From Clostridia bacterium (GTDB lineage: Bacteria; Bacillota; Clostridia; Oscillospirales; CAG-272), in assembly GCA_017428635.1 (NCBI GenBank), contig JAFRQK010000075.1, positions 1-32,912 on the forward strand: DNA of 32,912 bases. Reading direction: 5' to 3'. A program made the position numbers and the translations under genes. Below are positions 3,313 through 26,448 of this stretch, in pieces. Numbering within the stretch: position 1 is the stretch's first letter; every line of letters begins with the position of its first letter. The notes beneath the pieces are model-generated. The model ran no database searches, had not been told where the DNA came from, and was given only the letters and a program-made list of their open reading frames with translations.

Positions 3313-3350
3313 ATATTATATTGAAAAAGTATATCCAACAGGAGATCCGT

Positions 3351-4892
3351 ATGGGCTATCAAACCGTGGCGATCCTCGATTTCGGGGGTCAGTATAAGGA
3401 GCTGATCGCTCGCAGAGTCAGGGAGTGCGGCGTATACTCCGTCATCCTTCCCTCCACCGTCGGGATCGACGAGTTGAGAAGGCTCGATCCGATCGGGATC
3501 ATATTCACCGGAGGACCCGACAGCGTTTATGAAAAAGACGCGCCTTCGTGCGATCCCGCCGTTCTGTCGCTCGGCGTCCCGGTTCTCGGGATATGTTACG
3601 GGATGCAGCTTCTCTGCCACATGACGGGCGGCGAAGTCACTCCGTGCGAGGTGAGCGAGTACGGCAAGCGGGAGGCGTCGCTCGACGCGTCTTCCCCGCT
3701 ATTCGAGGGGATCGATCCCCTGACCGACGTGCTGATGAGCCATACCGATTTCGTATCCCGTCTTCCCGACGGATTCAAGATCACGGCAAAAACGAAAAAC
3801 TGCCCCGCGGCGGCGTGTGAGGACGCGGCGCGGAGGTATTACGGCCTGCAGTTCCACCCCGAGGTCGAAACGACCCCGCGCGGAACGGAGATCATAAGGA
3901 ATTTTCTCTTCTCCGTATGCGGCGCGGCGGGCGACTGGTCGACGGGCGACTATCTTAAAGAGCAGATAGCGGCGGTGAGAGAGCGCGTGGGCGACGGAAA
4001 GATACTGCTCGGTCTGTCGGGCGGCGTCGACTCGTCCGTTTGCGCGGCGCTCCTTTCCGAGGCGGTCGGCGACCGGCTCACGTGCATCTACATAGACCAC
4101 GGCTTTATGAGAAAGAACGAAACGGACGCCGTCAAGGCGGCGTTTGAGGGACGGCGGCTCAACTTCGTCCCCGTGGACGCGTCGGAACGGTTTTTCTCGG
4201 CTTTGAAGGGCGTCACCGATCCCGAAAAGAAAAGAAAGATCATCGGAGAGCAGTTCGTCAGAACGTTCGAGGACGAATCGAAAAAGTGCGGGAACCCCGA
4301 ATTCCTCGCGCAGGGGACGATATACCCCGACGTGGTGGAATCGGGCGCGAACAAATCCGCCGTCATAAAGAGCCATCACAACGTAGGCGGTCTGCCGAAG
4401 GATCTCGGCTTCAAGGGAGTGGTCGAACCGCTCCGCGGCCTGTTCAAGGACGAGGTCAGAGAGATCGGGCGGATGCTCGGCCTTCCCTCCGCTCTCGTCG
4501 AACGTCAGCCGTTCCCGGGACCAGGACTCGCGATCCGGGTGATCGGCGAGGTGACGCGCGAGAAGTGCGATATCCTGCGCGACGCCGACCTGATATTCAG
4601 AGAAGAACTCGACCGGGCGGCGAAGGAAGGACTGACCGACCGCGCCGACCAGTATTTCGCGGTGCTGACCGACACGAAGAGCGTCGGCGTCATGGGCGAC
4701 TTCCGCACGTACGAGTACACGCTTGTGCTACGCGCCGTCCGTACGTCCGATTTCATGACGTGCGAGTTCGCGCGGCTGCCGTGGGACGTACTGTCAAAAG
4801 CGTCCGCGAGGATAACGGGCGAGGTGAAGGGCGTCAACCGCGTCGTTTACGACGTCACGAGCAAGCCGCCGGCAACGATAGAATGGGAATAA
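3351..4892 (+). CDS. guaA: GMP synthase (glutamine-hydrolysing), full length
   Basis: Converts XMP, glutamine and ATP to GMP in the cytosol, the last step of de novo guanine nucleotide synthesis. The 513-residue length is normal. The N-terminal class I glutamine amidotransferase has the nucleophile Cys82 (LGICYGMQ) and catalytic His169/Glu171 (GLQFHPEVE). The ATP pyrophosphatase domain has the PP-loop SGGVDSS (223-229), and the C-terminal dimerisation/XMP domain ends in KPPATIEWE. The frame is open upstream to a TTG at 3321, but the ATG at 3351 has AGGAG 6 nt before it and aligns with family starts. A second, half-length GMP synthase lies at 25471. Genes for partner switching follow after 41 bp with no visible terminator. 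Confidence 0.98.
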   Translation: MGYQTVAILDFGGQYKELIARRVRECGVYSVILPSTVGIDELRRLDPIGIIFTGGPDSVYEKDAPSCDPAVLSLGVPVLGICYGMQLLCHMTGGEVTPCEVSEYGKREASLDASSPLFEGIDPLTDVLMSHTDFVSRLPDGFKITAKTKNCPAAACEDAARRYYGLQFHPEVETTPRGTEIIRNFLFSVCGAAGDWSTGDYLKEQIAAVRERVGDGKILLGLSGGVDSSVCAALLSEAVGDRLTCIYIDHGFMRKNETDAVKAAFEGRRLNFVPVDASERFFSALKGVTDPEKKRKIIGEQFVRTFEDESKKCGNPEFLAQGTIYPDVVESGANKSAVIKSHHNVGGLPKDLGFKGVVEPLRGLFKDEVREIGRMLGLPSALVERQPFPGPGLAIRVIGEVTREKCDILRDADLIFREELDRAAKEGLTDRADQYFAVLTDTKSVGVMGDFRTYEYTLVLRAVRTSDFMTCEFARLPWDVLSKASARITGEVKGVNRVVYDVTSKPPATIEWE

Positions 4893-4933: not shown

Positions 4934-5233
4934 ATGCTGAACATTAACAAAACCGTTGAAAACGGAAAGGCGGTCTTCGCGCTGGAAGGAAGGCTCGATA
5001 CCGTCACGGCTCCGGATCTTGAAAACGAGGTAATGGGCTCGATCGAGGACGTGAACGAGCTGACGCTCGATTTCGCGGGCCTCGATTACATCTCCTCCGC
5101 GGGGCTCCGCGTACTGCTCGCCGCGCAGAAGAAAATGAAGGGGCGCGGCAGCATGACCGTCACGAACGTGAACGGCAGCATCATGGACATTTTCGAAGTC
5201 ACCGGTTTTTCCGAGATCCTGACGATCGAATGA
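4934..5233 (+). CDS. STAS-domain anti-sigma factor antagonist (SpoIIAA/RsbV type)
   Basis: A 99-residue stand-alone STAS domain. In this family the dephosphorylated antagonist binds an RsbW/SpoIIAB-type kinase and frees its target. The usual phosphorylation-loop region is visible as FAGLDYISSAGLRVLL, making Ser54 or Ser55 the likely phosphosite. AGGAGA precedes the ATG. The stop overlaps the next gene's ATG (ATGA), so it should be translated together with the phosphatase that would activate it. Which sigma factor or other target it controls cannot be read here. Confidence 0.93.
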   Translation: MLNINKTVENGKAVFALEGRLDTVTAPDLENEVMGSIEDVNELTLDFAGLDYISSAGLRVLLAAQKKMKGRGSMTVTNVNGSIMDIFEVTGFSEILTIE

Positions 5234-6885
5234 CGAACGAGAAGAAAAACGGTAAGATCCGCGCCGGAGTTGCTGTCAACATAATCGGCGCGATAGTGAT
5301 ACTGCTCGCGGTCTTCGGAGTCGTGGTCAGTTTCATCGGTTACGCGAGTTTCACGACCGCATTCAAGGAGGAGTACGCCGTCTCGACATATCACATGGCC
5401 GACACGGCGACCACCCTGATCAACGGCGACCATCTCGACGCGTATCTCGCGGGTGATGAAGCGGAAGAGTACGAAAGAACGCAGAATTATCTGGACGTCT
5501 ACTGTAAAAAAATCAGCGTCTCGCTGATCTACCTCATTCAGGTGGACAGAAGCGACTACGGACGCTTCGTTTCCATATTCAATTCGGTCGACAACTCGGT
5601 CGACGACAGCACGTACACGCCGTGGGAGCTGGGCCACGAGCGCGACACGACGAACGACGAATACAGGCAGAAATACGAGGCCCTGTACGCCGGCGAATCG
5701 GCGTACGAGACGGTCTACCGCACCAAAGTCTCGGGCGGCGTCCACCCGCACGTCACGACGATGGTCCCCGTGAAAAACTCGTCGGGCGAGGTCGTCGGCA
5801 TCCTCTGCATGCAGCGTCCGATGCGCGAGATACACGACGCGCAGAGACCGTATCTGCGCAGAGTCGCCGTATCGACGGTCCTGCTCGCCGTCGTCGCTTC
5901 AGTTTTCGCCGCTCTGTTTATCCGCAGGCAGTTCGTCAAGCCCATCAGGAAAGTGGCGAACGAGACGGCGCGTTTCGCAAAGGAAAATACCAAGGGGGAG
6001 CCGCTCCGCGGGATCAGCAGATACCGGGAACTCGCCGCCCTTGCCGAATCGATCGACACCATGGAAACGGATATGGTATCGTACATTGAAAACCTGACCG
6101 AGGTCACGGCGGAAAAAGAACGTATCGGCGCGGAAATGACCCTCGCGAGCGAGATCCAGATGAATTCCATTCCGAACGTTTTCCCCGCTTTCCCGGAACG
6201 GCGTGATTTCGATATTTTCGCCTCGATGGATCCCGCCAGAGAGGTCGGGGGCGATTTCTACAACTTCTTTATGATCGACGACGACCGGATCGCCATGATG
6301 ATCGGAGACGTATCCGGAAAAGGCGTCCCGGCGGCTCTGTTCATGATGGTCACGAACATCCTGGTCTCGGACAGAACGTATATGGGCGGGACTCCCGCGG
6401 AGATTTTGGAATTCGTCAACGTAAACATCTGCGCGCACAACAAGGCGGAGATGTTCGTTACCGTGTGGCTCGGGATACTCGAACTTTCCACCGGAAAACT
6501 GACCGCGTCAAACGCCGGTCACGAATACCCGGTGATCAAACGCGCGGACGGCTCCTTTGAGATACTCCGCGACAAACACGGATTCGTCATCGGCGGCCTT
6601 GCGGAATCAAAATATAAGGACTACGAACTGACGCTTTCCCCGGGCGACAAGATCTTCGTTTATACGGACGGAGTGCCCGAAGCGACCGACGCCGAGAACA
6701 ACTTGTTCGGACAGCAGAGAATGCTCGACGCGCTCAACGGCGCCGCGGACGAAACGCCCGAGCAGATACTGAACAACGTGCGGCGCGAAGTCGACGCGTT
6801 CGTTAAAGACGCTGAACAATTCGACGATCTGACGATGCTCTGCATCGAATACAAAGGACAAGGAGAAGAAAAAAATGACCATTAA
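5230..6885 (+). CDS. Membrane sensor PP2C-type phosphatase (RsbU/SpoIIE family)
   Basis: Predicted to dephosphorylate a STAS antagonist in response to an extracellular signal. A cytosolic N-terminus is followed by a membrane helix (about 13-37), an extracytoplasmic sensor region (about 40-210, Cache-like in layout), a second helix (about 212-231), a HAMP-like linker with VKPIRKVANETARFAKEN, a coiled stretch (TAEKERIGAEMTLASEIQ) and the phosphatase domain (about 310-550). Metal-binding motifs are visible: VGGDFYNFF (Asp342), GDVSGKGVPAALFM (Asp360), NAGHEYPVI and VYTDGVPEA. It overlaps the STAS gene by 4 bp and the next gene by 11 bp, so the three form one tightly coupled module. Confidence 0.95.
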   Translation: MTNEKKNGKIRAGVAVNIIGAIVILLAVFGVVVSFIGYASFTTAFKEEYAVSTYHMADTATTLINGDHLDAYLAGDEAEEYERTQNYLDVYCKKISVSLIYLIQVDRSDYGRFVSIFNSVDNSVDDSTYTPWELGHERDTTNDEYRQKYEALYAGESAYETVYRTKVSGGVHPHVTTMVPVKNSSGEVVGILCMQRPMREIHDAQRPYLRRVAVSTVLLAVVASVFAALFIRRQFVKPIRKVANETARFAKENTKGEPLRGISRYRELAALAESIDTMETDMVSYIENLTEVTAEKERIGAEMTLASEIQMNSIPNVFPAFPERRDFDIFASMDPAREVGGDFYNFFMIDDDRIAMMIGDVSGKGVPAALFMMVTNILVSDRTYMGGTPAEILEFVNVNICAHNKAEMFVTVWLGILELSTGKLTASNAGHEYPVIKRADGSFEILRDKHGFVIGGLAESKYKDYELTLSPGDKIFVYTDGVPEATDAENNLFGQQRMLDALNGAADETPEQILNNVRREVDAFVKDAEQFDDLTMLCIEYKGQGEEKNDH

Positions 6886-8428
6886 ACTGAACGGCAGGAT
6901 AGATTCAAACAACGCCGCAGAGATCGAAAACGATATCCTCGCTCAGCTTTCCGGGCAGGAAGGCGCGCCCGTGGAGATCGACGCTTCCGGGCTCGAATAC
7001 ATCTCTTCCGCGGGGCTCCGGGTACTTCTCCGCATCAGAAAGAACCATCCCGATATGCGTATCACCGGCGTCAATTCCGAGGTATGGGAAATACTGGACA
7101 TGACCGGTTTTACCGAGATGATCCCGGTCGAAAAAGCGTACCGCGTCGTCTCGATAGAGGGAGCCGAAGAGATAGGCCGCGGCGCAAACGGCACGATCTA
7201 CCGCATCGACCGCGACAACGTAGTGAAGGTATACAACAACGCCGACGCGCTCGCCGACATTCAGCACGAGAGAGAGGTCGCCAAGCTGGCGCTGATCCTC
7301 GGCATCCCCACGGCGATCTCCTACGACGTCGTAAAGGTCGGAGAAAGTTACGGTTCGGTATTCGAACTGCTGAACGCGAGATCGTTCTCCAAGATCCTTG
7401 CAAACGAGCCGGAGCGGATGGACTGGTGCGTCAAAGAATACGTGGAACTGCTCGGCAAGATCCACTCCACGGTCGTTCCCGAGGGGAAACTTCCGGATAT
7501 GAAAGACACGGCGCTCGCATGGGCGCGTTTCATGCAGGACCATCTTCCCGCCGAAGCGGGAAACAAGCTTCTCGCTCTGATCGGATCGATCCCTCACGAC
7601 GACCATATGATCCACGGGGATTATCACACGAAGAACGTGGAACTGCAGAACGACGAAGTTCTGCTCATCGACATGGACACGCTGGCGGTCGGTCATCCGA
7701 TCTTCGAACTCGCCTCCATGTTCAACGCGTTCATCGGCTTCTCGGAATACGATCACGAGAACATCAAGAGATTCCAGGGATTCGATTTCGAGACCGGTTC
7801 GACCTTCTGGCACAAGACCCTTTCGGCATATCTCGGAACGCGCTGCGAGACCAAGATACGCGAGGTCGAGGACAAGGCGCGGATCATCGGCTATACGCGC
7901 CTGATACGCCGAACGATCGTACGCGGCGAGACGGAGACCGAGGAAGGCCGCGAAAAGGTGAAAATGTGGACGGAGGAGCTTCTCGGACTGCTGGATAAAA
8001 CGGACACTCTGCTTTTCAGCCGCAACGAACTCGAACTGGAGGCGGCGACGGGAAATCTCGACGAGGTACAGCTTTTCGTCGACGAACGGCTGGCTGAGGT
8101 CGACTGCCCTCCGAAAGCGCAGATGCAGATCGGCGTCGCGGTGGAAGAGATATTCGTGAATATCGCAAGCTACGCCTACGCGCCCGACAAGGGAAAGGCG
8201 ACCGTGCGCGTAGAGGTCACCGAGGATCCGGTCACGGTGACGGTCACGTTCGTAGATCACGGCGTGCCCTACGATCCGCTCGCAAAAGAGGATCCGGACG
8301 TCACCCTCCCCGCGGAAAAGAGGGAGATAGGCGGTCTCGGCATCTTTATGACCAAACAGATAATGGACGACGTCGCGTACGAGTACCGTGACGGTCAGAA
8401 TATCCTTACGCTGAAAAAGAATCTGTAA
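6875..8428 (+). CDS. Three-domain fusion: STAS, APH-like kinase, RsbW-like ATPase
   Basis: A 517-residue cytosolic protein with three parts. Residues 1-90 are a second STAS domain, with the same loop as its neighbour (EYISSAGLRVLL, Ser44/Ser45). Residues about 93-375 are an aminoglycoside-phosphotransferase/choline-kinase-like fold: glycine loop GRGANG (101-106), Lys118 in VVKVY, catalytic loop HGDYHTKN (Asp249, Asn254) and metal site LLIDMD (Asp266). Residues about 385-517 are a GHKL ATPase of the RsbW/SpoIIAB kind: N-box EEIFVN (424-429), DHG (461-463), GGLGIFM (486-492). One chain thus holds an antagonist, an anti-sigma-type kinase and an unrelated kinase-like domain. AAGGAGAAG precedes the ATG; the 11-bp overlap couples it to the phosphatase. 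The APH-like domain's substrate is unknown. Confidence 0.92.
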   Translation: MTIKLNGRIDSNNAAEIENDILAQLSGQEGAPVEIDASGLEYISSAGLRVLLRIRKNHPDMRITGVNSEVWEILDMTGFTEMIPVEKAYRVVSIEGAEEIGRGANGTIYRIDRDNVVKVYNNADALADIQHEREVAKLALILGIPTAISYDVVKVGESYGSVFELLNARSFSKILANEPERMDWCVKEYVELLGKIHSTVVPEGKLPDMKDTALAWARFMQDHLPAEAGNKLLALIGSIPHDDHMIHGDYHTKNVELQNDEVLLIDMDTLAVGHPIFELASMFNAFIGFSEYDHENIKRFQGFDFETGSTFWHKTLSAYLGTRCETKIREVEDKARIIGYTRLIRRTIVRGETETEEGREKVKMWTEELLGLLDKTDTLLFSRNELELEAATGNLDEVQLFVDERLAEVDCPPKAQMQIGVAVEEIFVNIASYAYAPDKGKATVRVEVTEDPVTVTVTFVDHGVPYDPLAKEDPDVTLPAEKREIGGLGIFMTKQIMDDVAYEYRDGQNILTLKKNL

Positions 8429-11743: not shown

Positions 11744-12895
11744 ATGAAAAAAGTCGTTATGTTGACTGCGGTCGCGCTGGCGGCGCTAATGCTGCTCCCG
11801 CTTTCCGCGTTCGCATCGAAGAACGGCGACTCCCTGCCCTTTTCCGACGTCAAGAGCGGAGAATGGTACTACGACGACGTCAAAAGCGTCTACGAGTCAA
11901 AACTCATGAAGGGCACGTCCGCTACCACGTTTAATCCCAAAGGGACGCTGACCCGCGGTATGTGCGCCACGATCCTTTACCGCGCGGCGAAAGAACCCGC
12001 CGTCAAAGCGGCGGCAACGTTTTCCGACGTCGACGCCGGCGCATACTACGCAGACGCCGTCGCCTGGGCGCAGAGCGCAAAAATCGTGACGGGCAGGACG
12101 GCGACCGAGTTCGATCCCGACGGAAACATCAACCGCGCCGAATTCTCGACGATGATGTACAGATATCTTGACGCCGAGGGGCTCGAACTTCCCGAGACTC
12201 GCGACGGTAAACCCGCGGACGCCGAAGATATCCCCGATTACGCCGCAGAGGCGGTCGACGCGCTGTACGGTGCGGAAGTCATCAACGGCAGAGAAAACGG
12301 AGAGTTCGACCCCGACGCGGATATCACCCGCGCCGAGACAGCGGCTGTTCTGGACCGTTTCTTCGAAAGAGTTACCGTTAGATGGACCGAGTTCTACAGG
12401 GCGTTTAACGATACCATGGATTACTACGCCTGGGTCACCTTCGATCAGAGTCCGGACGGCGGATTCTACAAGGACGCTGATTTAGCCGACCTCTCCGTCG
12501 GATATATTCCGGACGGACTGATTCTGTGCGGTACTGCGGAAGTAAACTATTGGCCTGAACTGGGATACAGTACAAGAACCTTCATCATCTGCGATCCCGC
12601 GGATACAACCGCGCCTGGTAAAACACATCCTCCGTTCGTTATAATCCACGTTCAGGAGGGCGACCGGGAAGCCGGATATTCCGACGAAGCGCTCGCGATC
12701 TCCGAAGAGATCACGGTCAACGGAATGGCCGCCTTGATGTTCGACTTCTTCTTTGAAAGCGAGGGCGAACAGTACGAATGCACAAGACTCGAGTTCGGCG
12801 ACAAGAACTTCACGGTCTACATGCAGGGTATAAACGTCAGCGGAGAAGACGTTTTAAAGATTGCCGAAAGTTTGACGGTAATTCCCGTCGAATGA
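11744..12895 (+). CDS. Exported SLH protein carrying an anti-sigma-type DUF4367 domain
   Basis: A 383-residue predicted S-layer-type surface protein. It has a signal peptide (1-25, ending AFA), then three SLH motifs at about 32-78, 92-138 and 155-208 (FSDVKSGEWYYDDVK; FSDVDAGAYYADAVAWAQ; the conserved TRGM, NRAEF and TRAET ends), which in the family bind pyruvylated wall polysaccharide. Residues 249-378 are a close copy of the extracytoplasmic domain of the anti-sigma factor at 10079-10858. AAAGGAG precedes the ATG at 11744. It is divergent from the ECF sigma gene and ended by the hairpin at 13021. A wall-bound copy of a sigma-control sensor domain suggests ligand sharing, competition or feedback with the anti-sigma factor; that is inference. 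Confidence 0.9.
   Translation: MKKVVMLTAVALAALMLLPLSAFASKNGDSLPFSDVKSGEWYYDDVKSVYESKLMKGTSATTFNPKGTLTRGMCATILYRAAKEPAVKAAATFSDVDAGAYYADAVAWAQSAKIVTGRTATEFDPDGNINRAEFSTMMYRYLDAEGLELPETRDGKPADAEDIPDYAAEAVDALYGAEVINGRENGEFDPDADITRAETAAVLDRFFERVTVRWTEFYRAFNDTMDYYAWVTFDQSPDGGFYKDADLADLSVGYIPDGLILCGTAEVNYWPELGYSTRTFIICDPADTTAPGKTHPPFVIIHVQEGDREAGYSDEALAISEEITVNGMAALMFDFFFESEGEQYECTRLEFGDKNFTVYMQGINVSGEDVLKIAESLTVIPVE
12488..12877 (+). repeat. Duplicated DUF4367-like domain, copy in SLH protein
   Basis: Codes for residues 249-378 of the SLH protein; partner of 10085-10480 on the opposite strand. The flanking residues (YAWVTF versus YVWVRF) are also related, so the duplicated unit includes a short stretch before the domain. 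Confidence 0.92.
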
Positions 12896-13118: not shown

Positions 13119-14570
13119 ATGAAAAAACTGCTGTCTCTCATCTCGCTTTTTTTGGCGATCGTTATCGTTATTCCCATCTTCGCGACGGCGGCGGGAAATA
13201 TGGCGTTTTCGGACGTAAAGGCGGGGGATTGGTTTTTTGACAACGTCAAATACGTTTTTGAAAACGGAATCATGAACGGCGCGTCCGCGACGAAGTTTGA
13301 TCCGTACGGAACGTTGACCCGCGGCATGTGCGCGGCGATCATTTACCGAATGGCAGGCAGTCCCGATAACGGGACTACAAACAAGTTTGCCGACGTTAAG
13401 CCGAGCGAATATTACTCGAAAGCCGTCGCATGGGCATACGGCAAGGGGATAGTCAACGGTAGGACTGCGACGGTATTCGATCCGAACGGTCTTATCACCC
13501 GGGCGGAATTCGCGACGATGCTGTACAGATTTCTCTTCGCCGCGGATCTCGTTCTTCCGGTGACCCGGGACGGCAAACCGGCCGACGCCTCCGTTATCCC
13601 GGCGTTCGCCTCCGATGCGGTGATCGCTCTTTTCCGCGCAGGGGTGATAAACGGAAGAGGAAGCGGCGCATTCGATCCCTACGCTTCGGTAACGCGTGCT
13701 GAGACCGCAGCGATGATCGAGAGGTTTATCAAAGCCGCGGAAAGCAAACCCGCAGACACGGGGTCCAATCCCGATCCGGACCCGTACACTCCTACCGTTC
13801 CGAACGGCGACGAGCTGGACATCGCGTTTTTCGGGAACAGCTACGTGTGGGTCCCGGAAACGCCCAATCATTTTAAAGCCATCGCCGAAGGGAAACATGA
13901 TGTCAAAGTCTACAACCGCACCCGAAGCGGGTGGAGTCTCAAGGATTTCTATGAATACTGGGGCAAAAGATCAAAGGCGGCGATCGCATATATCGTAAGC
14001 AAGTGGGACGTTATAGTTCTGAACGAGACAGCCGATTCGTCCATGCTGCAGTCAAGCGGATTATACTACAAACAACTTACGAAGATGTTCGGAGAAGACA
14101 AAGAATATTATAACCTTTGCGGATCGACTTTACTGAAAGACGAAAGCAAAATGAAACTTTCCGATAACAAGATGATGCGAACCACCATAATAGGTGATGA
14201 TGGAAATTCACCGTACTACCAAAAACTTGAATATTCAAACAAATGGTGCTTTGAAAAACGAGACTGGTTAAAAGAAAACTGTAACGTAAACAGGATCATG
14301 CTGAACCTCGCTTGGTTTGATCCGGATAATCCGCTTGATCCTCGGTACTTTGATTACTTGCCTGAGGATTTTCATCCCAACCGTCTGTACGGTTACTGTC
14401 ACGCTCTTGCGCTGTACTGTACGATCTTTAACGAACCGTGTATAGAACAGAACAACGGAATACTTAAAAGCGACGAGATCCCCGGCAATACGCCCGCGGA
14501 AAAAGAGGCGTTTATGATAATGCTGAAAAACCACGTTCAGGAACAACTCGACTTTCAGAAGGCGCACTGA
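13119..14570 (+). CDS. Exported SLH protein with SGNH-hydrolase-like (DUF4886-type) domain
   Basis: A 483-residue surface protein. It has a signal peptide (1-25), three SLH motifs at about 28-78, 89-137 and 155-205 closely related to the preceding SLH protein, a short Pro/Asp-rich linker (211-229) and a C-terminal domain (about 232-483) with SGNH/GDSL-like landmarks: DIAFFGNSYVW with candidate nucleophile Ser241, DVIVLNET as the block with conserved Asn/Glu, and EDFHPNRLYGY with candidate Asp417/His419. DUF4886 is my best family guess, from memory. Such enzymes usually remove acyl groups from carbohydrates. AGGAG precedes the ATG. Codons for about residues 305-385 are clearly AT-richer than the rest, which hints at a separate origin for this domain. 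Confidence 0.85.
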   Translation: MKKLLSLISLFLAIVIVIPIFATAAGNMAFSDVKAGDWFFDNVKYVFENGIMNGASATKFDPYGTLTRGMCAAIIYRMAGSPDNGTTNKFADVKPSEYYSKAVAWAYGKGIVNGRTATVFDPNGLITRAEFATMLYRFLFAADLVLPVTRDGKPADASVIPAFASDAVIALFRAGVINGRGSGAFDPYASVTRAETAAMIERFIKAAESKPADTGSNPDPDPYTPTVPNGDELDIAFFGNSYVWVPETPNHFKAIAEGKHDVKVYNRTRSGWSLKDFYEYWGKRSKAAIAYIVSKWDVIVLNETADSSMLQSSGLYYKQLTKMFGEDKEYYNLCGSTLLKDESKMKLSDNKMMRTTIIGDDGNSPYYQKLEYSNKWCFEKRDWLKENCNVNRIMLNLAWFDPDNPLDPRYFDYLPEDFHPNRLYGYCHALALYCTIFNEPCIEQNNGILKSDEIPGNTPAEKEAFMIMLKNHVQEQLDFQKAH

Positions 14571-14591
14571 TGAGATCGTGAGGAATTGAAA

Positions 14592-16580
14592 ATGAAAAAA
14601 ATAATAACGATAATTTCGGTTTGTCTTGCTATCGTTTTGATCCTGCCTCTTGCCGCCTCCGCCGGTGAAACGGGCGGCGATCTGCCGTTTCGAGACGTAC
14701 CGCGAACGAGTTGGTTCTTCGACGCGGTAAAAACGGTGTACGACAGGGGCGCGATGAATGGGATCTCGAGCGACGTTTTCGGACCGAATAAACCCATGAC
14801 AAGAGCGCAGTTCGTCACTATTATCGCCCGCGTGTCGGGCGAAAATTACGTCGGATTCGCCAACGAAGCGAATTTCAAGGACACCGAAAAAAACGGTTAT
14901 TACAACGATGCGCTCGGATGGGCTGTAAAAAACGAGCTGATCAACGGATACCCAGACAACACGTTCAAGCCCGGAGCACCGATCCTGCGTCAGGAATTCG
15001 CCGCCGTCTTTGCCCGGTATCTCTCTTACGGAAAAATCGAAATAACAGGCGAGGACGTCTCGCCCGGCTTCCGCGACATGTCTTCTTTTCCCGAGTATGC
15101 AAAGGGATCAATCGAGACGCTGCGCAAAACCGGACTAGTTAAAGGCGACAGCGCGGGGAACTTTAACCCCCAGAATAATATGACGAGAGCGGAGATCGCT
15201 CAAGTCATCGCCCGTTTTCTCGAGGCGATGGCCGAAAAGAAAACTCTCGAGGAAAAAGTGACGGAATTTCTCGATAAATATCTTTGCGAGGAGCACGGCA
15301 CGCTCGAACTGTTCTTCAACTACGCCGACTCTTCTCTCACGGAGGAAAACGTGGCGTTTCTTTTGAGGGGTCTGATCGGTCTTGACGGTGCTGCCACCGT
15401 GGAATTCGACGATTTCGGGGCGCTCGTCAACGGTTATTCGGCAAAAGACGGCGCAGGAGATCCGGGCGCCGGATGGTCACGGATCGACGGGGTCAAAATC
15501 ACTTTCACCGATCCCAAGACGCAAGAGACGTACACGGCAAATATCGACTTCTCACTTCGCACGGTCATCCCGACGAGCGAACTTGACGAGTATAAAAACG
15601 GCGCGCTCGGAATCTGCCCCGAAAGAGCTAACGAAAAAATGAAAAACGCATATGCAAAGGTCAACGAGGCGGCGACGGACGGGGAGATATACGCGGGTTA
15701 CAACGGGCGCTACAGCGCGAAAGATATTGAAACGTTTTTCCGCAAACTCACCGGCCTGACCGATAAAAACGAATACGAGTTTATCCTCGCGGGATTCGAT
15801 CCCAAAAAGCCCGGCCAGCCTTTTTACCCCACGTTCAGAGATCGAAAGAGGACGGATGGACGCCTTGACATGATTTGGATCAAGACCGCGCTCGAGGGTA
15901 CGGTCGAGCAGGTACCTCTTGAATGCCTGGTCGAAAACTTTATCGACGACTATACCTGTTTCGCCCACGGCAAGATTGACCTTTTCTTCAACTATACCGA
16001 CACTTCCCTGACCGAGGAAAATATGGCCGCGCTTTTGCGGGATCTGATCGGTCTTGACGACGGAGTAGCTGTGGAATTCGCAGATTTCAACGAGCTTCTC
16101 GACCGTTATCGGGATATCGGGGACGGTGCGGGAGCTCCCGGAAACGGGTGGACGTGGTATGAGGGCATCAAAGTCACGTTTTCCGACCCATCCACGAGGG
16201 AAAAATACACGGTGGGGTTTGACTTCTCTCTCCGCAAGGTCCTGCCGCTGGGCGAGATCGAAGAGTACAAAAACGGCGTCGCCGGTCCCTGTCCGGAAGC
16301 GTCAAACGAGGAAATGAGAGACGCGTACGACGCGTTCAACAAGGTCGCGACGACCGACGGAAAAATATACAAAGGTTACACGGGAGGATACAATGCCGCC
16401 GAGATCGAGGCGTTCTTCCGCAAGCTGACCGGACTGACCGATAAAGACGCCTTTGAGTTCATCCCGGTAGGGTTTGACCCCTCGGCTCCCGGCAAGCCGT
16501 TTTATCCAATGTTCAGAGACCTGAACAACGAATACGGCAAAGTCGACGTGATCTGGATCGAGACCGCTTTTGAACCTTAA
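14592..16580 (+). CDS. Exported SLH protein with two tandem copies of an unrecognised domain
   Basis: A 662-residue surface protein. The frame opens at a TTG (14586), but the ATG at 14592 after GAGGA is preferred. It has a signal peptide (1-24, ASA), three SLH motifs (about 32-80, 94-142 and 158-212; GLVKGDSAGNFNPQNNMTRAE is typical), then two tandem units of about 217 residues at 219-435 and 442-662. Each unit carries HGxxxLFFNYxDxSLTEEN, a GAGxPGxGW motif, DFSLRxVxP and a closing FRKLTGLTDK...FYPxFRD...WIxTAxE block. I do not recognise the unit. Only 21 bp separate this gene from the upstream SLH gene, so they are probably co-transcribed. Confidence 0.88.
   Translation: MKKIITIISVCLAIVLILPLAASAGETGGDLPFRDVPRTSWFFDAVKTVYDRGAMNGISSDVFGPNKPMTRAQFVTIIARVSGENYVGFANEANFKDTEKNGYYNDALGWAVKNELINGYPDNTFKPGAPILRQEFAAVFARYLSYGKIEITGEDVSPGFRDMSSFPEYAKGSIETLRKTGLVKGDSAGNFNPQNNMTRAEIAQVIARFLEAMAEKKTLEEKVTEFLDKYLCEEHGTLELFFNYADSSLTEENVAFLLRGLIGLDGAATVEFDDFGALVNGYSAKDGAGDPGAGWSRIDGVKITFTDPKTQETYTANIDFSLRTVIPTSELDEYKNGALGICPERANEKMKNAYAKVNEAATDGEIYAGYNGRYSAKDIETFFRKLTGLTDKNEYEFILAGFDPKKPGQPFYPTFRDRKRTDGRLDMIWIKTALEGTVEQVPLECLVENFIDDYTCFAHGKIDLFFNYTDTSLTEENMAALLRDLIGLDDGVAVEFADFNELLDRYRDIGDGAGAPGNGWTWYEGIKVTFSDPSTREKYTVGFDFSLRKVLPLGEIEEYKNGVAGPCPEASNEEMRDAYDAFNKVATTDGKIYKGYTGGYNAAEIEAFFRKLTGLTDKDAFEFIPVGFDPSAPGKPFYPMFRDLNNEYGKVDVIWIETAFEP
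15246..15896 (+). repeat. Intragenic tandem repeat unit A
   Basis: First copy (residues 219-435 of the SLH protein) of the roughly 217-residue domain; partner is 15915-16577. Shared landmarks include LFFNY, SLTEEN, DFSLR, RKLTGLTDK and PFYP. Confidence 0.9.
15915..16577 (+). repeat. Intragenic tandem repeat unit B
   Basis: Second copy (residues 442-662) of the same domain, ending at the protein's C-terminus. It has diverged from unit A by many substitutions but only short length changes, so it is an old duplication. Confidence 0.9.
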
Positions 16581-16720: not shown

Positions 16721-18805
16721 TTATCTCAGTTTTCCGGTTACGGTGAACGTGCCGTACGTCATACCGCCGCCGCGGATCGCGATCTGCATTCCCTGATAGA
16801 CCAGCATAGGACGGATCAGTTCAATTACGACGCCTTCGCGGATCTCACCCGGGAAGATATTGACTTCGGCATTGGAGATGGGATAGTTCATGTCGATGAA
16901 ACTGCCGGTGACGTCAGTCGTCGCCACGTAATACTGGAACTTGTTATCCTTCGTCATCGGGGTCGATCTGACCTTCGGATCGGAATAAACCGTACCGACG
17001 AACTTGCCCGTATACGGTTTCAGGCGGCTGCCCGCTTTGACTATGGCGTCGCCGCGCACGATCTTATCTTTCAGCGAAACGTCGCCTACAAGGATACCGA
17101 TCTTGTCGCCTTTTACGGCAATGTCGATCGTTTTCGAATTCTTCGCTAAAGCGATAGCTTTCGCATCGATTGCGACAGATTTACCGTCGGAGTCACAGCA
17201 GTAAATGACGAGGTTATCGCCCGTTTTGATACTGCCGTTGGTGACCTCACCGTAAACAGCGGTACCACGTCCGGTGATTCTAACGACTTCTTCTGCATAG
17301 AGCAGGAACTCGTCGCCGAGGGAGTTGACCGGGAACTCGGTCGGTTCGGGAACCATTCCTCTGCAGAGGAACGTCACGATCTGGCCTCTCGTGCAGGTCG
17401 CGTTCGGAGCGAAGATCGTGTCGGACATACCGTTGGTGATGCCGTTTTCGACCGCCCAGAGAACGGCTTTATAGTAATACTGACCCGCTTCGACGTCGGT
17501 GAAAACGTTGGTCGCCACAGTGGGTTCCGGCTGGCCGAACGCTCTCCACATAAACGTGACGACCTGACCTCTGGTGCAGCCCTTGCCCGGCCCGAAATGA
17601 GTTGCGTCAACGCCGTTGGTAACGCCGTTCTCAACTGCCCAAAGCACCGCTTTATAGTAGTACTGGTCGGACGGAACGTCGACGAAAGGATTGGTCGTTG
17701 AGGCCGGTTCGGGTTCGCCGAGCGCTCTCCACAGGAACGTAACGATATGGCCTCTGGTGCAGGTCGCTTTCGGAGAGAAAGTAGTTTCGGACGTTCCCTT
17801 TGTCACGACGGGATCGTGATTGACAGCCCATCCGACGGAGTCTGCGTAGTACTCGCTTCCCGACACGTCGGTAAACGGATTCTTGCCGCTGACGACGAAC
17901 GTCACGGTGTGATCCATGACCTCGCCGATGAAGTTGACGACGTGGAACGTCGCCTTATACATGCCCGCTTTCGTGGGAGTCCCGTAAACGTGAGGTCCGT
18001 CGACCTCGCTGAAGCTCCACGTCATTCCGTCGGGAACGGAGCCCGAGGTTACCCACGCGGAACGGGTCTGATCGGTGTTTTTGTCCTTGAGGTAGCAATT
18101 GTAATGCTTACCCGGTTCAAAGACGAGTTTCTCGTCGGACTTGACGGTCTTCACCGGGTTGACGATGAATTTGACCGTGTCCTCAACAACGTTTCCGTCG
18201 TACTGAATAATACGGAATTTCACGACCTCCTGCTCGGCGCATTCGGGAGTGCCGTAGACGCGGGGCGATTCCACTTCGCCGTAACCCCAGTTCATACCTC
18301 TGGGAAGATATCCCTCGACGATTTCTGCTCGGTAAAAAGATTCTGTAAAGACGGAATCATCAATTCCTTCTCTGTGAAGAAGATAGACCGTCTGATTCTT
18401 CATCGCGTCGAGATATATCGTCTCGCTTCTCGTCTTAACGGACGGATTGGTCACCATAAGATAGAAGTTGATGACAATTTCTCTCCCGTTTAAAAGAGTT
18501 GCAGTGAGCGAGAATGAGAACCAACCCGCTTCGGTCGGCGTTCCGTCGAGCCACGGGCTGGTAGCGGACGCCCAGTGCCAGTTCATTCCGGATGGAAGTT
18601 CGCCGCTTCTGACCGTACAACTTTTGACGATGATCCCGCCTCTGTCGATATCGGAATCGATCGCGGCGACCTTCCCCTTTTCGATTATTCTGGAAACGTT
18701 CACCCAGTTGTCATCCGCCGAAACGGTCGCCGCAAAGGCGGCGAGCAAGCCGGTGAGCATGGCGAGCGTCATCAGGAGGGACAGGATCTTTTTGGTTCTT
18801 GTCAT
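16721..18805 (-). CDS. Exported SLH protein with Ig-like repeats and EF-Tu domain II-III-like C-terminus
   Basis: A 694-residue protein with a signal peptide (1-30, VSA). Three related Ig-like repeats (about 34-120, 125-216, 222-306) share LPxGMNWxxxxxxSPxxxGTP, a putative-Ig (He_PIG-like) pattern. Three SLH motifs follow at about 309-484. Residues 498-694 line up end to end with EF-Tu domains II and III: FLLYAEEVVRITGRGTAVYG against EF-Tu's EDVFSITGRGTVVTG, KGDKIGILVGDV, IVRGDAIVKAGSRLKPYT, FQYYVATTDVTGSF, VVIELIRPM and GMQIAIRGGGMTYGTF. The GTPase domain (P-loop, NKxD) is absent, so it cannot act as an elongation factor. SLH anchoring plus a signal peptide places it on the cell surface; adhesion or structural use of the barrels is inference. 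AAAGGAG precedes the ATG. Confidence 0.92.
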   Translation of the reverse strand: MTRTKKILSLLMTLAMLTGLLAAFAATVSADDNWVNVSRIIEKGKVAAIDSDIDRGGIIVKSCTVRSGELPSGMNWHWASATSPWLDGTPTEAGWFSFSLTATLLNGREIVINFYLMVTNPSVKTRSETIYLDAMKNQTVYLLHREGIDDSVFTESFYRAEIVEGYLPRGMNWGYGEVESPRVYGTPECAEQEVVKFRIIQYDGNVVEDTVKFIVNPVKTVKSDEKLVFEPGKHYNCYLKDKNTDQTRSAWVTSGSVPDGMTWSFSEVDGPHVYGTPTKAGMYKATFHVVNFIGEVMDHTVTFVVSGKNPFTDVSGSEYYADSVGWAVNHDPVVTKGTSETTFSPKATCTRGHIVTFLWRALGEPEPASTTNPFVDVPSDQYYYKAVLWAVENGVTNGVDATHFGPGKGCTRGQVVTFMWRAFGQPEPTVATNVFTDVEAGQYYYKAVLWAVENGITNGMSDTIFAPNATCTRGQIVTFLCRGMVPEPTEFPVNSLGDEFLLYAEEVVRITGRGTAVYGEVTNGSIKTGDNLVIYCCDSDGKSVAIDAKAIALAKNSKTIDIAVKGDKIGILVGDVSLKDKIVRGDAIVKAGSRLKPYTGKFVGTVYSDPKVRSTPMTKDNKFQYYVATTDVTGSFIDMNYPISNAEVNIFPGEIREGVVIELIRPMLVYQGMQIAIRGGGMTYGTFTVTGKLR

Positions 18806-18843
18806 TTCTTTTTCTCCTTTCGGTACCTGTGATAATATAGGAC

Positions 18844-18875: not shown

Positions 18876-18904
18876 ATGATACCATATTATTACTGAAAAG
18901 TCAA
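18876..18904 (-). promoter_or_regulatory. Promoter of the SLH/EF-Tu-like gene
   Basis: On the minus strand TTGACT (18899-18904), 17-nt spacer, TATCAT (18876-18881). A good housekeeping promoter, consistent with strong expression of a surface protein. Confidence 0.8.
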
Positions 18905-18950: not shown

Positions 18951-18983
18951 AAAAACAGGGCTCGCCCCGGAAGGGTGAGCCCT
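18951..18983 (-). terminator. Terminator of the glycoside hydrolase gene
   Basis: An 11-bp stem with one G-T pair: AGGGCTCGCCC (18957-18967) with GGGTGAGCCCT (18973-18983). On the minus strand it is followed by GTTTTTC. It lies 20 bp past the hydrolase stop. Confidence 0.88.
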
Positions 18984-19003: not shown

Positions 19004-20479
19004 TCAGACGCGGAAAACGGATCGTCCCGCGGGGACGTCGATGGAGACGGGATCCCAGAGATATTTGGTGCCCACGACGAGGCGGAACGGTTTTTCCGCT
19101 TCGGTCTCGATCACCGTCTTATCCCTGAACGACTGATACTCCGTACATTTGACGGATATATTGTTTCCGTTGAATATCATATTCTCGAGGCCGCACTTTT
19201 CCCTGCCGTCGAGGTTGAACGTGACGGTATTCGACGGAGCGTCGAACTCGAGCCCGATGATATTTTCGATAAGCATCGTGATCGGCGCGAGACCGCCCCA
19301 GCCGACGAATTCCGACCTGACGAGTCCTCCGTCCTCGGTCGTCGCGGGTCTCGAATCCTCGGGCGCGTAGCACTCCCAGATCGATCCGTACGCGGGGTCT
19401 GTCGCGACCTTCGCCATGCCTTCGATCATTCTGACTGCCGCCGTCCGGGCGAGTTCCCTGTAACCGGTCTCGCACAGTCCGCGGACAGCCGCGTAGTTCG
19501 TCGGCGGCCAGACGCCGCCGAGCCAGTAACCGCCGGTCTTGTCGTAGTTCGGGTCGTCTCTTGACAGCGACGCGAACGGGATCTTCGTGAAGAACTCGTC
19601 CTCGGAGAACATGTGATCCTTCATCGCCTCGCGCCGCTCGCCCGTCGCCGCTCCGCAGATGAGCGCCCAGAACGCCGCAGCCGTTTTCGAGTTGATGAAT
19701 TTTATCTTCTGCCCTCTCACGTCGCGGGAGAAGAAATCGAAGTACCATCCCGCTCTCCCGCTCCAGTGGCGGGCGTTGATAAGAGCGTTTATCCTCTCTT
19801 TTTCGCTTCTGTAAAACGCGGCTTTATCGGTCTGCCCGAGGACTTCGCACATTTTTGCGAGGCGGTCGGCGCTCAGCGCCTGCTGGCACGCAAGGTCGAT
19901 ATGGCAGACGTCGCTGCCGTCGAGATGCTTCGCGAAATAACCGCCGCGCGGCGAGTTGTCCATACCGGAAGAACCCGGGTCCTCGAACCAGTAGAGATCG
20001 CAGTCGTCCCTTCTGCGCTTGTTCTCGATGAAGGAATAGATCCCCTCGAGCGCGGGGAGAACTTTCTCAAAGCGCGAGGAGTCGCCCGAGACGAGATAAT
20101 GCTGCCACTCCGCCCATGCCATCAGCGGCGGGTTGATCCGCTCGCCGTACGCCGGTTCTCCCGTTTCGATTACGTACGCCATCGCCATGAATCCGTCCGA
20201 TTCGCGCCTCAGCATATAGAGATTGTCGAGGTTGTTGAAAGCGTTGAGCGTACAGTTCGAGTAGTTCGTGATGAACGTCATGATGCAGGAGTCCCACTGC
20301 CACGTTATCCCGACGCCCGGCATACAGGTCATAATGTCAAGCCATCCCGGCTTGTCGAGATACTCGACGTTCTCGAACGCGAGTTCCCACGCCTTGTAGT
20401 AAAGGTCGATCCAGTCGTCGTGTCCCTCCAGTATCGGCCTCGGCAGTTTCGTTTTATCGAAAATGTATTTTTCGCCCAT
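19004..20479 (-). CDS. Trehalase-fold (alpha/alpha)6 glycoside hydrolase, MGH1/GH37/GH63-like
   Basis: A 491-residue enzyme without a signal peptide, so probably cytosolic. Hallmarks of the six-hairpin fold of trehalases and GH63 enzymes are PGVGITWQWDSCIM near the N-terminus, YWFEDPGSSGMDNSPR in the middle (Asp candidate general acid), KTGGYWLGGVWPPTNYAAVRG, and IWECYAPED with candidate Glu base. The C-terminal 80 residues form a beta-rich tail. The frame is open 23 codons upstream, but the ATG at 20477-20479 with AAGGAGA 5 nt before it is the clear start. It has its own promoter and terminator. The substrate (trehalose, mannosylglycerate, glucosides of processed glycans) cannot be fixed from the sequence. 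Confidence 0.87.
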   Translation of the reverse strand: MGEKYIFDKTKLPRPILEGHDDWIDLYYKAWELAFENVEYLDKPGWLDIMTCMPGVGITWQWDSCIMTFITNYSNCTLNAFNNLDNLYMLRRESDGFMAMAYVIETGEPAYGERINPPLMAWAEWQHYLVSGDSSRFEKVLPALEGIYSFIENKRRRDDCDLYWFEDPGSSGMDNSPRGGYFAKHLDGSDVCHIDLACQQALSADRLAKMCEVLGQTDKAAFYRSEKERINALINARHWSGRAGWYFDFFSRDVRGQKIKFINSKTAAAFWALICGAATGERREAMKDHMFSEDEFFTKIPFASLSRDDPNYDKTGGYWLGGVWPPTNYAAVRGLCETGYRELARTAAVRMIEGMAKVATDPAYGSIWECYAPEDSRPATTEDGGLVRSEFVGWGGLAPITMLIENIIGLEFDAPSNTVTFNLDGREKCGLENMIFNGNNISVKCTEYQSFRDKTVIETEAEKPFRLVVGTKYLWDPVSIDVPAGRSVFRV

Positions 20480-20513
20480 ATATATCTCCTTGCGCGTTAA
20501 TCTCACTTTATAA

Positions 20514-20542
20514 ATCGTACCATAATTCCCGTAGTAAATCAA
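20514..20542 (-). promoter_or_regulatory. Promoter of the glycoside hydrolase gene
   Basis: Minus strand TTGATT (20537-20542), 17-nt spacer, TACGAT (20514-20519), about 35 nt before the ATG. Confidence 0.65.
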
Positions 20543-20557
20543 CCGCAATAGAATCCG

Positions 20558-24260: not shown

Positions 24261-25457
24261 ATGAGCGACAACAGAAGAGTCGGTACCGTCTCGCGCGGTA
24301 TCCGCTGCCCGATCATCCGCGAGGGCGACGACCTCGCCGCGATCGTCGCGAACTCCGTCCTCGAAGCCGCGGGGTCTGAGGGCTTTTCCATCAACGACCG
24401 CGACGTGATCGCCGTGACCGAGTCGGTCGCGGCGCGTTCGCAGGGCAACTATGCGACGGTCGACGATATCTCTTACGACGTAAAGCGCAAACTCGGCGAC
24501 GGGACGATCGGCGTCATTTTCCCGATCCTCTCACGAAACAGATTCGCGATCTGTCTGCGCGGTATCGCCCGGGCGGTAAAGAAGATCGTCCTGATGCTCT
24601 CCTACCCTTCCGACGAGGTCGGAAACGAACTCGTTTCCCTCGACGCGGTAGACGAGGCGGGCGTCAACCCGTTCTCCGACGTTCTCTCCCTTGAAAAATA
24701 CCGCGAACTGTTCGGCGTCGTACGCCATCCGTTCACCGGAGTTGACTACGTAGAATATTACGGCGACCTCATCAGGGAATGCGGAGCGGACGTCGAGATC
24801 GTTTTCGCGAACGATCCGCGCGCGATCCTCAGATACTCCGACGTCGTGCTGAACTGCGACATACATACAAGAGCGAGGACGAAACGGATCCTTCTCGCCT
24901 CGGGCGCGAAGACCGTCGTGTCTCTTGACGGAATTCTCAACGAGTCCGTGAACGGAAGCGGTTTCAACGAAAAGTTCGGCCTGCTCGGATCGAACAAGTC
25001 GACCGAAGAGAAGATAAAGCTCTTCCCGAGAAACTGCCGCGAACTCGTCGCCGATATTCAGAAGAAGATCTTCGACGCTACGGCCAAAAAGGTCGAGGTC
25101 ATGGTCTACGGCGACGGCGCGTTCAAGGATCCGCAGGGCAAGATCTGGGAACTCGCCGATCCGGTCGTCTCGCCCGGATACACCGACGGACTTATCGGCA
25201 CGCCTAACGAACTGAAACTGAAATATCTCGCCGACAACGATTTCAAAGACCTGTCCGGCGACGAACTTAAATCTGCGATCGAGAGCAAGATCCGCGCGAA
25301 GAGCGGATCGCTCGTCGGCAACATGGCGGCGCAGGGCACGACTCCGAGGCAGTACACCGATCTGCTCGGCTCGCTGTGCGACCTGACGTCCGGTTCTGGC
25401 GACAAGGGCACGCCCGTCGTGCTCGTTCAGGGCTATTTCGACAATTATACGGATTGA
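24261..25457 (+). CDS. CofE-like protein (coenzyme F420-0:L-glutamate ligase superfamily)
   Basis: A 398-residue cytosolic protein resembling F420:gamma-glutamyl ligase in its N-terminal two thirds ([66 protein letters not shown], a conserved metal/GTP-binding region). It is longer than archaeal CofE (about 250 residues). No other F420 genes are in the window and Clostridia are not known F420 producers, so it more likely adds an amino acid to another acid. AAAGGA precedes the ATG. It sits 13 bp before a second GMP synthase subunit, which suggests linked roles. Confidence 0.82.
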
Positions 25458-25470
25458 GAGGAAGGATAAA

Positions 25471-26448
25471 ATGAGCAACAAAAGACCCGACGATATGATA
25501 AGGATCACGACTCCCGAGCTCGCGGAGGCGTTTATCGAGGAACAGATCGCGGCGATCCGCGAGCAGGTGAAGGACGGCAAGGTGCTTCTCGCCCTCTCGG
25601 GCGGCGTCGACTCGTCCGTCGTGGCGGCGCTCCTCATCCGCGCGATCGGCGAGCGTCTCGTCTGCGTACACGTCAACCACGGTCTGCTCCGCAAGGGTGA
25701 GCCGGAACAGGTCATCGAAGTTTTCCGTAATCAACTCGGCGCGAACCTCGTTTACGTCGACGCCGTCGACAGATTCCTCGACAAACTCGCGGGCGTCGCG
25801 GAGCCGGAAAAGAAGAGAAAGATTATCGGCGCGGAGTTCATCCGCGTGTTCGAGGAAGAGGCGAGAAAGCTCGACGGGATCGGTTTCCTCGCACAGGGAA
25901 CGATCTATCCCGACATTCTCGAGAGCGGTCCGGTCAAGGCGCACCACAACGTCGGCGGTCTGCCCGACGACCTGCAATTCGAACTCGTAGAACCCGTGAA
26001 ACTCCTCTTCAAGGACGAGGTCAGAGTCGTCGGCAAGGCGCTCGGCCTGCCCGACTCGATGGTATACCGTCAGCCGTTCCCGGGCCCGGGACTCGGCGTC
26101 AGATGCACCGGCGCGATCACGTGCGACAGGCTTGAAGCGCTCCGCGAGGCGGACGCCATCCTGCGTGAGGAATTCGCCGCCGCCGGCCTCGCCGGCAAAG
26201 TCTGGCAGTATTTCACGATCATTCCCGACTTCAAGACGGTCGGCGTGAAGGAAGGACTGCGCTCCTTCGAGTGGCCCGTCGTCATCCGCGCTGTGAACAC
26301 GCGCGACGCGATGACCGCGGAGATCGAACAGATCCCCTACCCGCTTCTCGCCCGGATCACCGGCAGGATCACGAAAGAGGTCAGGGGCGTCAACCGCGTG
26401 CTTTACGACGTGACCCCGAAACCGACCGGGACGATCGAATGGGAATAA
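25471..26448 (+). CDS. GMP synthase PP-ATPase subunit without amidotransferase domain (GuaAb-like)
   Basis: A 325-residue ATP pyrophosphatase plus dimerisation domain equivalent to the C-terminal two thirds of GuaA, as in the split archaeal enzyme. The PP-loop [42 protein letters not shown] and the C-terminal KPTGTIEWE are all intact, so XMP amination looks possible. The glutaminase half is missing and no separate GuaAa is next to it; ammonia or another amidotransferase would be needed. It is redundant with the full-length GuaA at 3351 and clearly diverged from it. GGAAGGA precedes the ATG. Last gene of the ybjQ operon, ended by a hairpin. Confidence 0.93.

Follow-up and report, generated by a model that had tools for sequence, protein, structure and literature searches.

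The window, a stretch of 32,912 nucleotides (contig JAFRQK010000075.1) from a Clostridia bacterium whose genome is labelled G000 here, carries on its minus strand an open reading frame of 694 residues, the window copy, in which a putative signal peptide, three Ig-like repeats and three SLH motifs are followed by domains II and III of EF-Tu (Table 1). An earlier note, which named no strand, had described these parts from the sequence. The SLH motifs were recovered by Pfam as described, with the sequences TRGHI, TRGQV and TRGQI at residues 350, 411 and 472. Two of the Ig-like repeats were also detected by Pfam; the third, like the signal peptide, was recognised by eye. Positions 16721–17314 encode residues 498–694 together with the stop codon.

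Table 1. Features of the surface-protein gene and its upstream flank, in window coordinates.
Feature	Position	Strand	Basis
Whole gene, 694 residues: putative signal peptide, Ig-like x3, SLH x3, EF-Tu domains II and III	16721..18805	minus	Open reading frame and profile searches
Putative signal peptide, residues 1–30	18716..18805	minus	By eye: basic N-terminus, then a hydrophobic core and small residues
Ig-like repeats x3, residues 31–306	17888..18715	minus	Pfam He_PIG, 2 stretches, E 1.1e-8; repeat 3 by eye
SLH motifs x3, residues about 309–482	17360..17881	minus	Pfam SLH, 3 stretches, E 7e-27
EF-Tu domain II, residues 498–591; amino-acid pocket degraded	17033..17314	minus	Pfam, NCBIfam, phmmer, Foldseek
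EF-Tu domain III, residues 600–694, ending at the stop codon	16724..17008	minus	Pfam, NCBIfam, phmmer, Foldseek
Ribosome-binding site AAAGGAG, 8 bases before ATG	18814..18820	minus	Sequence
Sigma-A-like promoter TTGACT-17-TATCAT, 10/12 of consensus	18876..18904	minus	Consensus match only
Terminator-like hairpin 3′ of the upstream gene	18956..18969	minus	Such sites no commoner than expected here
Upstream neighbour, MGH1-like/GH63-type glycoside hydrolase	19004..20548	minus	Profile search

The colinear alignment of residues 498–694 with EF-Tu domains II and III, on which the earlier note was built, is borne out by Pfam, NCBIfam and phmmer. When these residues were searched alone, GTP_EFTU_D2 scored 30.9 bits against a cut-off of 30.3 and GTP_EFTU_D3 27.9 bits against 27; within the whole protein both were slightly under the curated cut-offs (28.4 bits, E 2e-6, and 24.6 bits, E 3e-5, respectively). 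The NCBIfam EF-Tu models aligned EF-Tu positions 205–392 at E 9e-26 with the domain alone, and solved EF-Tus were matched colinearly by phmmer at E 1e-24. Chance similarity is ruled out by the strength of the NCBIfam match and the colinearity, and another translation factor as the source by the much poorer matches to EF1A (E 8e-7) and SelB (E 2e-5) with the same domain. A weak match (E 0.001, domain alone) to the NCBIfam model NF041207, Pbp11, covers domain II only and reaches 19 bits against a model cut-off of 100. Pbp11, by its model name an archaeal tRNA-binding protein, resembles the window protein in having a domain II-like barrel without a GTPase domain.

A motif search of the 694-residue frame revealed neither a P-loop nor NKxD, in agreement with the earlier note, nor DxxGH, and Pfam gave no match to the GTPase domain in it, for which reasons the protein is not classed as an EF-Tu. 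It is like the product of tuf in being colinear with it over about 190 residues to the C-terminus, but has no GTPase domain and carries instead a putative signal peptide and SLH motifs; the identity to the EF-Tu of its own genome is 34%. Within G000 domain III was found in two places, this EF-Tu (on contig C54 and cut by the contig end) and the window frame, while domain II gave eight matches in seven frames. NKxD is present in all six of the other domain II frames found, so that within this genome, of which the assembly is 96% complete, the window frame alone was seen to have domain II without a GTPase.

An AlphaFold2 model of the domain from an alignment of two rows was poor, with a mean pLDDT of 48.8. 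After 24 EF-Tus from viral contigs had been added to the alignment, the model reached a pLDDT of 90.6 and a pTM of 0.84, and the best Foldseek matches of this model were EF-Tus (E 1.1e-16, TM-score 0.82 on query length, rmsd 3.5). By title the best 50 matches were EF-Tu, reconstructed EF-Tus or complexes that contain EF-Tu. The model of the window copy has the same two-barrel fold as EF-Tu, as the earlier note would predict, though it was aided by the added rows, which may have pushed it into this fold.

Whole-length matches to the window protein are present in four of the 12 genomes of the genus (G000, G086, G151 and G153), with intact copies in G151 and G153 that are 67 and 54% identical to the window copy. 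The copy of G086, in a stretch identical to the MAG RGIG6051 from sheep omasum, is interrupted by a single in-frame TAG in its third Ig-like repeat (about positions 6856–6858 of locus L003). No whole-length match was found in the other eight genomes, including G023 and G130, each about 95% complete, and given this absence and the TAG the gene looks dispensable. The TAG, together with the origin of the window in a 79-contig assembly, might also be taken to mean that the gene is an artefact of assembly or binning or a decaying pseudogene. This is most improbable, given the complete and intact orthologues in two further genomes, the upstream neighbour common to three species, the promoter-like and ribosome-binding sites and a dN/dS well below 1; an assembly artefact is rejected in view of the orthologues in other genomes.

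Across the family 128 of 146 genomes gave a match, of which only those of G000 and G086 were clearly better than EF-Tu; the others were judged from frame length to fit EF-Tu or pieces of it, with 28 family loci inspected. NKxD lies upstream in 55 of the 56 EF-Tu frames inspected in all, the remaining one being cut by its contig. Among 394 genomes of the order the own genome was the sole match at E ≤ 1e-35, a threshold that would miss members as diverged as the second gene of G517 (1.6e-28 with the same profile). Scanning genome contigs with short exact peptide patterns returned one relative, at L003.

The glycoside hydrolase gene upstream adjoins the surface-protein gene also in G086 (L003) and G151 (L036), and thus in three of the four species. 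Its product is 91 and 96% identical to that of the window in these two genomes, whereas the surface protein is only 78 and 67% identical. G153 has another gene in this position, nucleoside-hydrolase-like by eye. The promoter-like site, one of six in the region where 1.5 were expected from shuffles, and the AAAGGAG sequence suggest that the surface-protein gene is transcribed separately. On its 3′ side the opposite (plus) strand encodes three more SLH proteins, at 11744–12895, 13119–14570 and 14586–16580. The last of these apparently contains two copies of a repeated unit, as seen by eye, and Pfam detects only SLH in it. The SLH repertoire of G000 is very large for a genome of 2.3 Mb: the whole query protein gave 90 matches, those listed lying, apart from the frame itself, in or around the SLH part, and more than 100 matches were obtained in three sister genomes.

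Pyruvylated wall polysaccharide serves as the anchor of SLH domains, according to a review (PMC8056022), and a gene of the pyruvyl-transferase family is present at one place in the own genome (PS_pyruv_trans, PF04230, E 1.7e-32, a family-level match). The window protein is similar to the SLH-anchored S-layer-associated proteins treated there in its putative signal peptide, its three SLH motifs and the variable nature of the further domains; it differs in having, among these further domains, two barrels from a translation factor. The words 'elongation factor' do not occur in the review.

Searches for proteins combining SLH motifs with the EF-Tu barrels found this architecture both in the genus and in other families of the Clostridia. 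Among 118 genomes of the class, long GTPase-less frames were found in three, G535, G585 and G517, with eleven weaker matches (E 1e-11 to 8e-7, frames of 98–745 residues) outside this count. With D2 and D3 denoting the two EF-Tu domains, the order is SLH-D2-D3-Ig in G535 and G585 and SLH-Ig-D2-D3 in each of two tandem genes in G517. Despite their different family labels G535 and G585 are counted as one lineage, since a stretch of about 13.7 kb (L096 339–14000 and L097 313–14022) is 99.4% identical between them, the number of PEPTKE repeats differing; the sharing of this stretch may reflect transfer or misbinning. Frames that by eye are SPFH/zinc-ribbon-like, TPM-like and TMEM43-like lie around the SLH/EF-Tu gene in both.

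A profile of the full-length fusion matched 12 of 391 class genomes at E ≤ 1e-60, and ten of the 12, from other Clostridia families, encode an SLH protein with domain II and without the GTPase domain, in some cases with domain III. Domain II is over the Pfam cut-off in seven (G517, G535, G801, G774, G550, G856 and G632) and below it in two (G855, 26.8 and 29.2 bits, and G685, 20.5 bits), while G585 is counted through the identity of its stretch to that of G535. SLH motifs with both barrels and no GTPase domain are seen in G517, G535/G585 and G774, where domain III scores 28.7 bits against a cut-off of 27, and SLH motifs with domain II alone in further genomes. Domain II was not found in the frames of G852 and G620, nor in the second or third frames of G632 and G517; it was found at locus L108, along with a chance NKxD, and not in the available part of the frame at L111, which runs off the locus. 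Only genomes already known matched in the families of G774 (two of 16) and G517 (one of six), so that the trait is patchy.

In the phylum the full-length profile matched two of 398 genomes, through SLH alone, with no D2-D3 match at E ≤ 10 in L184–L186. The D2-D3 profile matched 258 of the 398, and among the matches listed only the window frame stood out, the listed frames being judged by length as EF-Tu or contig-edge pieces, with a few longer ones of up to 522. Among plasmids, the 20 records listed of 84 were annotated as tuf or elfamycin-resistant EF-Tu or were without a feature, and the four records of a second search were all tuf.

It had been proposed in the earlier note that EF-Tu domains II and III were genetically recruited into a dedicated, wall-anchored protein. 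The occurrence of such genes in four of 12 genomes of the genus and in other Clostridia families supports this, with the amendments that the architecture recurs and that the barrels do not look like a recent copy of the EF-Tu of the same genome. Forcing the four copies of the genus together with the own EF-Tu and three others of the own family made the tree 36 log units worse (AU p 0.004), which, with the caveat of long branches, speaks against such a recent copy, as does the identity of 34% to the own EF-Tu. In the trees a branch with a support of 100/99 separates the D2-D3 copies from the EF-Tus, both for seven copies with 56 EF-Tus, where the bootstrap had not settled, and for eight copies with 20 EF-Tus. 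The substitutions P213Y, V291A and G386F (E. coli numbering without Met), scored in the D2-D3 copies only, are present in all eight, and the derived residues occur in none of 80 EF-Tus (0/56 and 0/24). The 56 EF-Tus all have P, V and G at these sites; the 24 from viral contigs have P, A, S or F at site 213, with V at 291 and G at 386 throughout. The window copy has the complete set of family traits, namely SLH motifs, domains II and III, no GTPase domain and the three substitutions.

The one-sided trees, the three shared residues and the rejection of the own-family grouping lead us to favour one old capture as the probable, if not proven, source of the fusion copies. As the branches are long, the grouping may be due in part to long-branch attraction, and the same three substitutions could arise by a convergent response to the loss of domain I. 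The alternative, that 3′ ends of EF-Tu genes were captured several times, independently and within single lineages, is a possibility that we hold to be the less likely one. It would account for the different domain orders (Ig-SLH-D2-D3 in the genus of the window, SLH-Ig-D2-D3 or SLH-D2-D3-Ig elsewhere), for an identity of only 28–38% between the window copy and those of other lineages, and for the long branches, but not readily for three substitutions found in eight of eight copies and in none of the EF-Tus, the branch support, or the AU result. The identity of 28–38% is no higher than that of the copies to EF-Tu (33–42%), which also weighs against a single capture. A phage origin is rejected, the domain having no PHROG match and the 128 pattern matches on viral contigs including no relative when judged with the fusion profile.

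The amino-acid pocket in domain II of EF-Tu consists of E215, D216, F218, T228 and N273 (numbered without Met; with Met in PMC6386890). The window copy has EEVYK in place of EDFTN and so keeps one of the five. Seven relatives retain 33 of 35 pocket residues, compared with 159 of 280 at the remaining D2 sites with a conservation of 95% or more in EF-Tu (site permutation p 0.02); for four lineage representatives the figure is 19 of 20 (p 0.02), and with the window copy included p rises to 0.055 for all eight. A list of nine pocket sites gave the same picture as that of five, and three tRNA-contact sites in domain III were 83% kept, compared with 44% elsewhere (p 0.04). By eye the members with domain II alone appear further degraded. 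With 33 of 35 residues kept in the relatives and one of five in the window copy, the relatives may still bind something via the pocket, while such binding is improbable for the window protein. The description of these domains as tRNA/EF-Ts-binding barrels was therefore overstated for the window copy, though the seven relatives have kept the pocket. It is conceivable, if rather doubtful, that most D2-D3 members, the window copy excepted, have an exported aminoacyl-end-binding barrel with a pocket that still functions extracellularly. Domain II would then bind an amino-acid ester, such as the D-alanyl esters of wall polymers, or the 3′ end of a charged tRNA, such as scavenged tRNA, at the surface, and the window copy would be a reassigned branch that lost the pocket.

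Among the intact members of the genus dN/dS is 0.42–0.50 for domain II, 0.36–0.47 for domain III, 0.21–0.30 for the SLH region and 0.32–0.37 for the Ig part. The open piece of the G086 copy, paired with G000 only, gives 0.38, 0.34 and 0.14 for domain II, domain III and SLH, respectively. The barrels are under purifying selection that is weaker than that on the SLH anchor. Domain II evolves faster than the SLH region (0.38–0.50 against 0.14–0.30), and the protein diverges far faster than the product of the neighbouring gene (67 against 96% in G151), which would fit either a relaxed filler or an adapting binding face.

On balance it would seem likely that the window protein is a wall-anchored module for binding or display that lacks a GTPase. 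Such a protein would be secreted and fixed to the cell wall through its SLH motifs, with EF-Tu domains II and III displayed at its C-terminal end. Its barrels would descend from EF-Tu barrels that long ago, within the Clostridia, passed from translation into SLH surface proteins; later variation would have left some members without domain III and rearranged the partner domains. The faces of the barrels would bind an external partner, which might be a host or feed surface, a neighbouring cell, a wall polymer or a neighbour in the surface layer; since the pocket is degraded in the window species, a partner there, if any, would probably be bound elsewhere on the barrels. The direct basis is the domain content, the predicted fold, the lack of a GTPase domain, the conservation in related species and the recurrence in other families, while secretion and wall anchoring we infer from known SLH biology and the pyruvyl-transferase-family gene. 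Ligand binding was put forward as conjecture in the earlier note and keeps that standing here.

The main rival of this binding or display role is that of a structural spacer, in which the barrels would be compact beta domains that extend or pack the protein like the Ig-like repeats, with no specific ligand. A spacer could well have lost the pocket, as in the window copy with its one residue of five, could evolve faster in domain II than in SLH, and could exchange its position with the Ig domains or do without domain III, as several relatives do; a pure spacer would have no need of the 33 of 35 pocket residues in the seven relatives (p 0.02, or 0.055 for all eight copies), and we regard it as unlikely.

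When EF-Tu is met at the bacterial surface, the usual explanation is that cytosolic protein has arrived there with no secretion signal and binds ligands of the host. There is a precedent for binding by parts of EF-Tu: fragments are reported to bind host proteins, and in Mycoplasma the fibronectin-binding regions take in the end of domain I, the start of domain II and most of domain III (PMC5593925). The moonlighting EF-Tu described there resembles the window protein in that the barrels are outside the cell, with fragments keeping host-protein binding; it is the cytosolic tuf product, said to lack a secretion signal, whereas the window protein has a gene of its own, which encodes a putative signal peptide and a predicted wall anchor. 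No description of the combination of SLH motifs with EF-Tu barrels was found in open-licence literature, including passages of PMC8056022, PMC5593925 and PMC3901451, although domain labels for such proteins may already be assigned by automatic annotation. SLH surface proteins are themselves known; as far as this literature goes, what is new is one with an outer module from a translation factor. The family offers a clean natural case, in that two EF-Tu barrels are carried without the GTPase on predicted secreted, wall-anchored proteins; a pair of domains central to translation has apparently become an extracellular building block. Similar genes in its relatives suggest that in this gut Clostridia bacterium and its kin EF-Tu barrels have taken on a heritable role outside the cell. 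Whether the barrels are useful there can be tested directly, as the gene should be removable without harm to translation.

Several other features of the window lie outside this family. A SpoIIE phosphatase (5230–6885, plus strand) is followed by a frame (6875–8428, plus) with STAS, APH-type phosphotransferase and HATPase_c_2 in one chain, an unusual anti-sigma-type regulator. There are two GMP synthases (3321–4892 and 25471–26448, plus), one complete with its amidotransferase and the other the synthase part only, and a protein of the F420-0:gamma-glutamyl ligase family (24261–25457, plus; E 1e-55) is encoded in this Clostridia genome. Among the viral contigs, the EF-Tus of ten (L171–L180, 36–533 kb) have EGVH instead of EDVF at the amino-acid pocket and are possibly EF-Tus of large phages with an altered specificity.
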